Positions 43,970 to 51,969 of a stretch of 64,000 bases of DNA are shown here, piece by piece; positions within the stretch are counted from its first letter, which is position 1, and each line of letters begins with the position of its first letter. Made by a program: the position numbers and the translations under genes. The notes below the pieces were generated by a model, which searched no databases, was not told where the DNA came from, and saw nothing but the letters and a program-made list of their open reading frames with translations. Source of the stretch: Streptococcus iniae (lineage in GTDB: Bacteria > Bacillota > Bacilli > Lactobacillales > Streptococcaceae); NCBI RefSeq assembly GCF_030732225.1, contig NZ_CP132230.1, positions 1,578,001 through 1,642,000 of the forward strand, given 5' to 3'.

Positions 43970-44446
43970 TTATTCTTTAAAATCAATAAAATATGGCTTA
44001 ATTTTTCTAAGAAGTGCTTTTCTTCCAGAAAACCTTTCTCCTCTCACCAAAGCATAGAATTGTTCTAATTCCGTCCCATTCAAAATACATTTCAATTCTT
44101 CAACAATAGCTTGATAGGCAATATAATCATCAAGAACTAATCCTTTTGAAGCAACTTTATGTGATACTTCACCGATTTCTTCATATGGCATTTTATTAAA
44201 CTTTCTTTTGTAACTTTCTTGATGTCTTAAGACATCTTTAATATATGATGAAAATTTTGTCTTAAAGTATGTATAAAGCCTTTTATCATTTTCTGTCAAA
44301 TCAGGAAATTCTGTAAGTAAAGCATGCAATACAACTCTACCTTCTTGTAACCAGTCTTCTTTATCCCAAAGTTGTATATAATAACGTTTTTGAAATTTTA
44401 AAATAATTGGTTTAACTGAATTAAATAGTGATTCAACTTTTTCCAT
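43970..44446 (-). CDS. sigX: competence sigma factor SigX (ComX)
   Basis: A 158-residue alternative sigma factor. The start MEKVESLFNSVKPIILKFQK, then IQLWDKEDWLQEGRVVLHAL (region 2 helix), and YTYFKTKFSSYIKDVLRHQE with SYKRKFNKMPYEEIGEV are very close to S. pyogenes SigX as I remember it. It directs RNA polymerase to CIN boxes of late competence genes. The frame opens at 44470, but GGAG lies seven bases before the ATG at 44446, which is thus the start. A ComR-type palindrome and TATAAT lie upstream. Its neighbour is tRNA-Arg of an rRNA operon. Confidence 0.95.
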   Translation of the reverse strand: MEKVESLFNSVKPIILKFQKRYYIQLWDKEDWLQEGRVVLHALLTEFPDLTENDKRLYTYFKTKFSSYIKDVLRHQESYKRKFNKMPYEEIGEVSHKVASKGLVLDDYIAYQAIVEELKCILNGTELEQFYALVRGERFSGRKALLRKIKPYFIDFKE

Positions 44447-44481
44447 GATAAACTCCATTTCTTTCCACATATAATATAGAC

Positions 44482-44487
44482 ATTATA
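44482..44487 (-). promoter_or_regulatory. -10 box of sigX
   Basis: On the minus strand TATAAT lies 18 bases below the ComR-type palindrome, after a T-rich stretch (TTCTTTTTCTTTGCC), with no good -35. This is the activator-dependent layout of ComR promoters. Confidence 0.75.
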
Positions 44488-44505
44488 AAAGAAGGCAAAG
44501 AAAAA

Positions 44506-44529
44506 GAACATGACATAAATGTCATGTTC
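44506..44529. promoter_or_regulatory. ComR-box palindrome, also terminator-shaped
   Basis: A perfect dyad of two 11-base arms, GAACATGACAT and ATGTCATGTTC, around AA. The core ACATnnATGT with flanking G/C matches ComR boxes known from pyogenic and mutans streptococci (ComR binds the XIP peptide and activates sigX). On the minus strand it follows tRNA-Arg and is followed directly by TTTTTCTTT, so it can also be the intrinsic terminator of that tRNA gene. Confidence 0.8.
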
Positions 44530-44545
44530 AAAAAGTAAAAATAAT

Positions 44546-44618
44546 GCACCCTAGAGGAGTCGAACCTCTAACCGCCTGATTCGTAGTCAGGTACTCTATC
44601 CAGTTGAGCTAAGGGTGC
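44546..44618 (-). tRNA. tRNA-Arg (ACG)
   Basis: The minus strand folds into a standard 73-base tRNA: acceptor GCACCCT with AGGGTGC, anticodon stem CCTGA/TCAGG around the loop CTACGAA (anticodon ACG), and T loop GGTTCGACTCC. It has its own predicted promoter (44636-44664) after the terminator of the rRNA operon. Confidence 0.96.
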
Positions 44619-44635
44619 TTACTAACTTTAAAACT

Positions 44636-44664
44636 ATCATATCATCTTATCACTAAAAATGCAA
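44636..44664 (-). promoter_or_regulatory. promoter of tRNA-Arg
   Basis: On the minus strand TTGCAT (44659-44664) and TATGAT (44636-44641) have a 17-base spacer. The -35 overlaps the T run of the terminator that follows tRNA-Asn. Confidence 0.6.
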
Positions 44665-44686
44665 AAAAAGATAGGCTATCCTATCT
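44663..44686 (-). terminator. terminator of rRNA operon after tRNA-Asn
   Basis: GATAGG and CCTATC (44670-44686, loop of about 5) form a stem followed on the minus strand by seven T residues. Confidence 0.75.
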
Positions 44687-44694
44687 CCTCTTAC

Positions 44695-44767
44695 TCCGCC
44701 AGTAGGACTCGAACCTACGACATCATGATTAACAGTCATGCGCTACTACCAACTGAGCTATGGCGGA
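44695..44767 (-). tRNA. tRNA-Asn (GTT)
   Basis: The minus strand folds to a 73-base tRNA with acceptor TCCGCCA/TGGCGGA, anticodon loop CTGTTAA and T loop GGTTCGAGTCC. It is 11 bases downstream of 5S rRNA in the same transcript. Confidence 0.96.
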
Positions 44768-50182: not shown

Positions 50183-51025
50183 TCACGCGATCAGTTTCCT
50201 GTACTGTACAGGAGACTGGTCTTTTACTTTCTGTTGAATTCTAGTTTCATTATAAAATGTAATGTCATTTTTAACAATATTTGTTATACTATCCTTGTTG
50301 TATTTTCTCCTATCATGGAGATAAAAGGTTTCAGTCTTTAGGACGGAGTGAAACCATTCAATACAGGCATTATCTGCTGGTGTTCCCTTACGGGACATAG
50401 AGCGGGTGATGCCTTTTTCCGTGCAAGCCTGATAGTAAGCCTTAGAAGTGTAGACTGAGCCCTGATCGCTGTGTAAGAGTGCTCCATTGGGTAATTTTAA
50501 CTGATTAAGGGTGTCTAGTACAAAATCTGTGTCCTGACAATCTGAGATAGTATAAGCTATAATCTCTCGGTTATAGAGGTCCATAATTGAAGAGAGATAC
50601 AATTTACAGTTGCCGAAATATAGGTAGGTAATATCCGTTACAAGTTTTTCCAATGGCTTATCGGCATGGAAATCCCGACTCAATTTGTTATCTGTTAAAT
50701 AATAAGTTTTACCAAGATTGGGCGATTTCTTTGGACGTGTCCGACAAAGCCAGCCATTGTCTTTCATGATACGATAGACTTTCTTTGCATTAATAGTCAA
50801 TCCATAGGTCTTCTTGAGCAATCGTGTAATGGTACAATAACCATAAATAAAGTGATTCTCCATGCAGAGTAGCTCAATGGTTTCAACTATGACATCTCTT
50901 TTCTGTGGCGTCTCCCTTTTCTTTTTCCAACGGTAAAAGGTAGACCGTCTGACACCAAAACAATTTAGAATAACGGAAACGGGGTAGATATTCTTATAGT
51001 CTTCCACAAGCTTGATAAGGGTCAC
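50183..51025 (-). CDS. IS3-family transposase OrfB (DDE)
   Basis: A 280-residue OrfB with the HTH-like start and DDE core: VTDITYLYFGNC (Asp), LLHSDQGSVYTSKAYYQACT (Asp) and PADNACIEWFHSVLKTE (Glu). Complete to QSPVQYRKLIA. The initiator is GTG. A slippery A AAA AAG heptamer lies in orfA (51055-51061), and a -1 shift there joins the two frames to OrfAB, so the active transposase is probably the fusion. Confidence 0.9.
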   Translation of the reverse strand: MTLIKLVEDYKNIYPVSVILNCFGVRRSTFYRWKKKRETPQKRDVIVETIELLCMENHFIYGYCTITRLLKKTYGLTINAKKVYRIMKDNGWLCRTRPKKSPNLGKTYYLTDNKLSRDFHADKPLEKLVTDITYLYFGNCKLYLSSIMDLYNREIIAYTISDCQDTDFVLDTLNQLKLPNGALLHSDQGSVYTSKAYYQACTEKGITRSMSRKGTPADNACIEWFHSVLKTETFYLHDRRKYNKDSITNIVKNDITFYNETRIQQKVKDQSPVQYRKLIA

Positions 51026-51312
51026 TTTGTCGATTTTCTTATCAAGCTTCGATACTTTTTTAAGAGATCCACCTGAAGTCGTAACTGTTCTATTTCAGAG
51101 AGTTGTTCCATACCTTGTCCGTAAGTATATTGTTTACCTACAGGTTGGTGGAAACGGTGCAATTCATCCTTTTCATACCATTTCATCCAAGTATAGATTT
51201 GACTATCATTTTTGATACCTAAGGTCTCCATAATGACCTTGTTTGACTTGCCTGCATTCTTCATCTCGATGCAAGATAACTTCGTTTCTAATGAATAAGC
51301 TTTTTTGACCAT
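51022..51312 (-). CDS. IS3-family OrfA
   Basis: A 96-residue helix-turn-helix protein (VKKAYSLETKLSCIEMKNAG, KSNKVIMETLGIKNDSQIYT) ending in a leucine zipper and LLKKYRSLIRKSTK. It overlaps orfB by four bases. Within LLKKY, codons TTA AAA AAG contain the frameshift heptamer. Confidence 0.9.
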   Translation of the reverse strand: MVKKAYSLETKLSCIEMKNAGKSNKVIMETLGIKNDSQIYTWMKWYEKDELHRFHQPVGKQYTYGQGMEQLSEIEQLRLQVDLLKKYRSLIRKSTK

Positions 51313-51420: not shown

Positions 51421-51969
51421 TTATTTTGCTTCAATTAGCCCTAAATCACCATCTTCACGACGATATAGAATATTTGTTGCACCATTGTCTGAATCTGTAT
51501 AGATAAAGAAGTCATGTCCAAGAAGTTCCATTTGAAGACGAGCCTCTTCAACATCCATCGGTTTCAGAGTAACATTCTTAGTACGAACAATCTTGATTTC
51601 TGGAGCTACTTCATCTTCCTCAGCTTCAAATTCACTGGTGAAAACTTGACCGGTTGGTAATTTTTCACGATGTTTTTTTGCAATTTTTGTCTTATTTTTT
51701 CGAATTTGACGTTCAATTTTATCAACAACCAAATCGATTGAACCATACATATCTTGTGAAACATCTTCTGCTCTTAAGGTCATATTTCCCAATAAAATGG
51801 TCACTTCAACTTTCGCTGTTTTTTCACGATAGACTTTTAAATTGACACGAGTATCTATTTCATTTTCTTCTACAAAATATTTTTCAATTTTGGCAAGCTT
51901 TGATTCAACATAGTCGCGAATAGCTTCGGTTACTTCGATGTTTTCTCCACGGATACTGAATTTAATCAT
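51421..51969 (-). CDS. hpf: ribosome hibernation promoting factor, long form
   Basis: A 182-residue HPF: N-terminal domain IKFSIRGENIEVTEAIRDYV and AEDVSQDMYGSIDLVVDKIE, linker, and C-terminal dimerisation domain KPMDVEEARLQMELLGHDFF and ILYRREDGDLGLIE. It forms 100S ribosomes in stationary phase. The promoter (52013-52040) overlaps the end of comFC. An IS3 element lies in its downstream terminator region. Confidence 0.95.
   Translation of the reverse strand: MIKFSIRGENIEVTEAIRDYVESKLAKIEKYFVEENEIDTRVNLKVYREKTAKVEVTILLGNMTLRAEDVSQDMYGSIDLVVDKIERQIRKNKTKIAKKHREKLPTGQVFTSEFEAEEDEVAPEIKIVRTKNVTLKPMDVEEARLQMELLGHDFFIYTDSDNGATNILYRREDGDLGLIEAK

Follow-up and report, generated by a model that had tools for sequence, protein, structure and literature searches.

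What does a perfect palindrome do when it lies between a tRNA-Arg gene and sigX, the gene of the competence sigma factor, with both genes read in the same direction? The question arises in a 64,000-nucleotide stretch of Streptococcus iniae DNA (the window), for which an earlier note, made from the letters alone, had proposed that one element is both the terminator of tRNA-Arg and the ComR box of sigX. Here we set out the anatomy of the locus, the ComR system of the same genome and the state of the site in related genomes, and weigh the dual role against its alternatives.

Organization of the locus

Read on the minus strand, the locus runs from the end of an rRNA operon through tRNA-Asn, a hairpin, a promoter-like site, tRNA-Arg, the palindrome and a T-rich run to TATAAT and sigX (Table 1). 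The terminator-like hairpin past tRNA-Asn would make tRNA-Arg a separate unit, and the gene does look like a short transcription unit of its own behind a terminator. The promoter-like site in front of it is no better than chance (the scan found 11 such sites, against 7.8 +/- 2.9 in shuffles); a TTGCAT stands at its place in six of nine loci compared, as judged by eye. The 158-residue frame downstream is SigX/ComX, its relatives at 54-63% identity being named competence-specific sigma factor ComX or competence protein ComX; a Pfam search of the frame gave no match, and its only NCBIfam match was the general sigma-70 ECF model, under that model's cut-off. Elsewhere in the window, two frames at 50183-51312 resemble an IS3-type transposase pair, and beside them, at 51421-51969, is a ribosome-hibernation-factor-like gene (both named by eye from their translations).

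Table 1. Features of the tRNA-Arg/sigX locus and of the comR locus in the same genome (positions are those of the window unless a locus is named)
Feature	Position	Strand	Basis or remark
tRNA-Asn(GTT)	44694..44767	-	
Terminator-like hairpin past tRNA-Asn, end of rRNA operon	44661..44694	-	scan; -18.2 kcal/mol
Promoter-like site of tRNA-Arg, TTTGCA-18-TATGAT	44636..44665	-	scan, 9-of-12 match
tRNA-Arg(ACG)	44545..44618	-	probably own transcription unit
Perfect 11+2+11 palindrome; as RNA a 10-bp hairpin with loop 4, the putative tRNA-Arg terminator	44506..44529	-	sequence, scan, fold
ComR box AACATGACA-TTTA-TGTCATGTT, core GACA-N4-TGTC	44507..44528	-	exact full box; definition in accessible text of PMC5131891 and PMC4072589
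T/U-rich run TTTTTCTTTG past the stem; also T-rich spacer typical of ComR promoters	44496..44505	-	sequence, scan; accessible text of PMC6703854
sigX -10 element TATAAT, 36 nt from start of GACA	44482..44487	-	sequence; offset common to relatives
sigX/comX, 158 aa from ATG	43970..44446	-	GGAG at 44456-44453; longer frame starts 44470
comR	L074 1465-2379		between purB-like and ruvB-like sequence (neighbours by eye)
comS, 31 codons, ends SEWWWL	L074 2453-2548

The palindrome as a candidate terminator

On the minus strand, positions 44529-44506 read GAACATGACATTTATGTCATGTTC and are followed by TTTTTCTTTG, so that the perfect 11+2+11 dyad described in the earlier note, with a U-rich run behind it, is borne out. 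As RNA it folds into a 10-bp stem with four G-C pairs and a 4-nt loop (-13.2 kcal/mol, z -7.8), a stability that none of 200 shuffles matched; the palindrome exceeds chance expectation. It starts 15 nt past tRNA-Arg and ends 18 bp ahead of the sigX TATAAT, and between the tRNA gene and sigX the scan returned nothing else terminator-like on the minus strand, which leaves the palindrome as the only candidate terminator of the tRNA gene. The two parts of an intrinsic terminator, a stable stem-loop and a U-run, are thus present, and they lie where a transcription unit closes, ahead of the next gene and with no further terminator in between. Since the palindrome is one of five sites that the scan marked in 3.5 kb, against 2.1 +/- 1.5 in shuffles, the scan is by itself weak evidence.

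The palindrome as a ComR box

By every feature that can be tested in sequence, the palindrome is a ComR box. Positions 44507-44528 carry GACA-N4-TGTC within a 20-bp pseudo-palindrome, as the box is defined in the accessible text of PMC5131891. The match to a ComR box claimed in the earlier note stands, but its core, given there as ACATnnATGT, is described better by GACA-N4-TGTC, the full 22-bp box running from 44528 to 44507. This exact full box, AACANGACANNNNTGTCNTGTT, occurs without mismatch at two places in the 2.18-Mb genome, where a reversed control pattern occurs at none, and is present in 67 of 284 genomes across the genus. A third candidate in the genome (L003), with one mismatch, falls inside a nuclease-like reading frame (named by eye) and was rejected.

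The promoter has the corresponding layout. TATAAT was indeed found 18 bases past the dyad with no good -35, as had been noted before: the hexamer at the -35 position, 17 bp upstream of TATAAT, reads TGTTCT, and the promoter is on that ground taken to lack a -35. Counted from the start of GACA, the best -10 is at offset 36 in 47 of 48 distinct sigX boxes and in 42 of 46 comS-region boxes (ties resolved toward 36; at least one comS-region box, in G048, has no nearby -10 and may not be a comS promoter). A -10 at fixed distance, no -35 and a T-rich spacer, which the accessible text of PMC6703854 describes as part of ComR promoters, are therefore all found ahead of sigX. For S. mutans, the sigX start is reported to map to its ComR box (PMC5069739, accessible text).

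The genome also holds the regulator and its pheromone gene, comR together with comS. The closest solved relative of its ComR is ComR 5fd4 (E 3.7e-56); it also aligns to the S. thermophilus ComR of PDB 5JUB, and the R-x-x-x-R pair of the recognition helix (two arginines in the accessible text of PMC5131891) is aligned in it. The ComS peptide ends in the WW type, which the accessible text of PMC5131902 describes as type II. Its promoter has GACA-AATA-TGTCATGTT, and TAGAAT at a -10 distance identical to that of the sigX box. An Rgg_C protein (L059), which we take to be Rgg2, and a second one (L060) were rejected as candidates for ComR. The former matches solved regulators such as 4yv6, with no ComR listed for it.

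Sample of related loci

We examined 93 sigX loci and found a GACA-N4-TGTC core in 65, counting cores up to about 160 nt from the start; the 28 coreless loci were left unclassed, 17 of them with no tRNA seen (one of these cut short at 85 bases) and 11 after tRNA-Glu. Loci L230, which covers a wrong region, and L252 do not enter the evidence. With five named loci (L036-L040) omitted from the genome table and second copies averaged, 49 genomes were retained; ten coreless genomes bring those looked at to 59, out of 247 that had a sigX match, namely those with loci returned by the sigX search and hand-picked places, mostly from the upper part of the list. The comR loci examined numbered 47, two of which had no core near comR; two more class-B genomes were left out, giving 45 for the paired comparison.

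Three classes were formed: (i) class A, with the box at most 30 nt from a tRNA and no further terminator-like hairpin in the interval (11 genomes, the tRNA being tRNA-Arg in ten and tRNA-Asn in one); (ii) class B, with the box 31-120 nt from a tRNA (19 genomes, 15 of which have a separate terminator-like hairpin in the gap); and (iii) class C, with the box farther away or no tRNA seen (19 genomes). Three named loci, two of S. equinus and one of S. vicugnae, which we take to belong to the bovis group, carry a hairpin behind tRNA-Asn that is separate from the box, and the distal arm of their box is poor (-3.9 kcal/mol).

Proposed mechanism and possible coupling

One 24-bp palindrome very probably serves, on the same strand, as the intrinsic terminator of tRNA-Arg when read as RNA and as the ComR box that replaces the sigX -35 when read as DNA. 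The dual role put forward in the earlier note is, to the extent that sequence can speak, well supported by the anatomy of the locus and by its relatives. What we infer for the window species in the way of ComR binding, termination and start sites is as follows: (i) transcription from the tRNA-Arg promoter would end in the U-run past the hairpin, at about 44496-44505; (ii) ComR with its WW-type pheromone (XIP) would bind the GACA/TGTC half-sites and recruit RNA polymerase, the palindrome standing in for the -35 and the -10 lying at 44487-44482; (iii) the sigX transcript would start near 44475, about 30 nt past the stem and outside the hairpin; and (iv) when there is no pheromone, the terminator would insulate sigX from the upstream tRNA promoter. 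Such a fused element would save space and keep sigX quiet beside a constantly active tRNA gene. Because the tRNA-Arg and sigX RNAs would not overlap, the hairpin would be absent from the sigX transcript.

The two roles are probably an economical packing that protects sigX from leak, rather than a regulated coupling. Coupling, which the earlier note proposed, would mean that tRNA-Arg readthrough is altered when ComR-XIP occupies the palindrome or when termination changes, so that tRNA transcription and competence control one another, for example with bound ComR acting as a roadblock or with readthrough giving a basal level of sigX; we regard this as quite unlikely. Both sites are the same DNA, transcription runs from the tRNA toward sigX and the window stem is only moderately strong, all of which would suit coupling. 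A further point comes from S. salivarius YS18, in which, in the accessible text of PMC13101493, tRNA genes lie upstream of comX as they do in the window, and a tRNA-upstream rearrangement brings far-upstream, constitutive comX transcription with a start 288 nt upstream; that case differs from the window in the rearrangement itself, in the constitutive expression and in a promoter region described there as having no ComR consensus. On the other hand, the system does not need coupling, since in 15 of the 19 class-B genomes an ordinary ComR box is parted from the tRNA by a distinct terminator-like hairpin, and the predicted sigX RNA is without the hairpin, which speaks against attenuation of sigX's own transcript. 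Simple insulation is favoured over regulated coupling, and leaky readthrough into sigX would be possible. It is doubtful that the palindrome is a regulatory node, at which ComR-XIP shifts tRNA-Arg termination and the leak past this fairly weak terminator sets basal sigX and so decides which cells become competent; if it were, the competence switch would read tRNA synthesis (growth rate) directly.

Stem strength and pairing in relatives

The earlier note had named the site in related genomes as a check, and the comparison argues for a terminator role through stem strength, pairing, and solo and split copies. Median stem energies in classes A, B and C are -17.9, -8.8 and -9.2 kcal/mol (A against B and C together, Mann-Whitney 2.9e-5, relatedness ignored). 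All ten pairs, at positions 3 to 12, are formed in 11 of 11 distinct class-A boxes, compared with 9 of 34 other sigX boxes and 13 of 37 comS boxes. Within genomes, the stem of the sigX box is stronger than that of the comS box in 11 of 11 class-A cases (Wilcoxon 0.001, relatedness ignored), against 10 of 34 in classes B and C.

Position 12, which lies outside the 20-bp ComR box, is paired in all 13 distinct boxes that are tRNA-adjacent or solo, as G-C in seven and as C-G in six; it is paired in 16 of 34 other sigX boxes and 19 of 37 comS boxes (Fisher 0.0006 and 0.0016, relatedness ignored). Position 7 likewise pairs in all 13 of these boxes, with T-A and G-C exchanged for each other, but ComR symmetry can explain that too. 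Compensatory change, as would be looked for in a terminator stem, is accordingly found at positions 12 and 7, in counts that carry no correction for relatedness; on the SigX tree, class A needs six changes on the best tree, with only two independent pairs on supported branches, too few to relate tRNA adjacency to stem strength.

Stem strength varies around this trend. The window stem is the weakest of the 11 class-A stems and weaker than the adjacent tRNA-Asn hairpin (-13.2 against -18.2 kcal/mol); strong stems also occur at some boxes that adjoin no tRNA (e.g., -22.3 in G042), and some comS boxes are strong-stemmed as well, up to -18.6. Four class-B genomes are reversed, with sigX boxes at -3.7 to -3.9 and comS boxes at -15.4 to -18.6. 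In these (L221, L238, L098 and L217) the comS box, which lies past comR, has a T-run behind its strong stem, and it may end comR.

The T-run was rejected as proof of termination: ComR promoters generally carry one, and it is seen with poor stems too, so that by itself it is not evidence of termination. Since the right half of the box (TGTC-A/C-TGTT) and the T-run recur at many ComR boxes regardless of the upstream neighbour, it is mainly the distal arm and position 12 that speak for termination.

These data bear on the reading in which the palindrome is a ComR box only, the hairpin is a by-product of its dyad symmetry and tRNA-Arg ends elsewhere, for instance by exonuclease trimming or at a Rho-dependent stop. 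Dyad symmetry is inherent in ComR boxes, and their promoters include a T-rich spacer, which would suit it. Against it stand pairing that goes past the 20-bp box and shows a G-C/C-G swap, seen in all 13 boxes that are tRNA-adjacent or solo but in about half of the rest, the weaker comS stems in 11 of 11 class-A genomes and the solo copies without sigX, and we hold this reading improbable.

Solo and split copies

The dual role is approached from another side by copies of the palindrome that stand without sigX. The second copy in the window genome (G000:C1:416518-416539) follows another rRNA operon, tRNA-Asn and tRNA-Arg; it has the loop TAAA for TTTA, is identical to the window copy for 25 nt past the box, through TATAAT, and then diverges into a region with a convergent lysC and no sigX. 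Three relatives (L183, L184 and L185) have tRNA-Arg, the palindrome and the T-run at the lysC locus, again without sigX, and in them the -10 is absent from its proper place, as judged by eye. With the window genome, this makes four in which the palindrome is kept behind tRNA-Arg at a lysC locus that has no sigX. A tblastn search with 34 SigX queries over 855 to 1500 bases downstream of these four solo copies (more for G000, in L005) gave a best E of 0.016, and the genome-wide sigX search gave a single match per genome in all four. Other genomes have sigX at the lysC locus, and two (G036 and G038) have it at both the lysC and yqeG loci. The simplest history, as read from these arrangements, would be that sigX was lost from one of two loci and the tRNA terminator was kept; recombination between rRNA operons, rather than selection, could also keep the solo palindromes.

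The reverse separation is seen in G162 and G173, where tRNA-Arg is followed by a hairpin of its own, GAACATGG...CCATGTTCTTTTT, which resembles the outer box arms and has no GACA/TGTC, and a separate, weaker-armed ComR box (-9.2 and -9.6) lies 209 and 295 nt on; as these sequences read, the two jobs sit on separate elements. In G163, GAACATGGGCC follows tRNA-Arg and then gives way to unrelated sequence. That the palindrome is only a tRNA terminator, with sigX driven by another promoter, would agree with the solo copies, three of the four without a -10 in place (by eye), but is scarcely credible against the full ComR-box match, the -10 offset shared by 47 of 48 distinct sigX boxes and a comR/comS pair with a matching box in the same genome.

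At the second copy in the window genome (L001 1501-1560, from G000:C1:416518 on), TATAAT stands at ComR spacing and faces the convergent lysC, and under ComR-XIP this copy could make RNA antisense to lysC. Its loop differs from that of the window copy as if the hairpin loop had been flipped.

Relation to known systems and significance

The overlap itself is in print, and the core idea of the earlier note is for that reason not new: Zaccaria et al. 2014 (PMC4072589) state, in the accessible text, that in pyogenic and bovis species an upstream tRNA gene's terminator stem includes the distal arm of the ComR box, and the comX/sigX promoters treated there share with the window the box, the promoter and the statement of terminator overlap. 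That text gives the overlap in one sentence and a figure legend, without a test. The statement fits the pyogenic type better, because the S. equinus and S. vicugnae loci have a separate hairpin and a poor distal arm. The S. thermophilus ComR-XIP-DNA complex (PDB 5JUB; PMC5131891) has GACA half-sites and a 20-bp pseudo-palindrome as in the window, and its accessible text treats the box as DNA only, with no terminator role; the WW-type end of the window genome's ComS is a further difference. No other report that treats or tests the overlap, or solo or split copies, was found in a mostly non-subscription literature, in part of its text, and a narrowly worded search found no precedents of terminator/operator overlap at tRNA genes. 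The layout is already known; the comparative evidence given here was not found in print.

The locus is a compact case of one sequence read as RNA, for termination, and as DNA, for activation, and it offers a concrete reason for the silence of sigX beside very active rRNA and tRNA genes. The genomes present natural experiments in the fused, split and terminator-only states, and since these states make the question testable, we consider the site of moderate interest. Basal, leak-driven competence becomes testable through one changed stem arm, and anyone editing this promoter should expect that arm changes may shift tRNA-Arg ends and sigX leak together. In a milder form of the doubtful regulatory-node reading, ComR-controlled sigX would have arisen or spread by taking over tRNA/rRNA-operon terminators, which, if true, would explain why sigX stands beside rRNA operons and moves between them.

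Further ComR boxes

Two more arrangements were seen during the comparison. At L194 (735-1028; the same box flank occurs in L188 and L196), tRNA-Asn is followed by a ComR box and then by a short frame that looks, by eye, like the beginning of a SigX; a Pfam search of the frame gave no hit, and it is apparently a decayed sigX copy beside an rRNA operon. At L193 (691-955, in G060; box and flank are identical in L195 and L197), a gene for paratox, a ComR inhibitor (Pfam PF24313, E 1.2e-16; PDB Prx 6cka, E 1.3e-6), is preceded by a full ComR box whose -10-like TAGACT, placed by eye, lies at offset 36, and is followed by a piece that resembles ComGC by eye; this paratox is possibly a ComR-driven feedback inhibitor.
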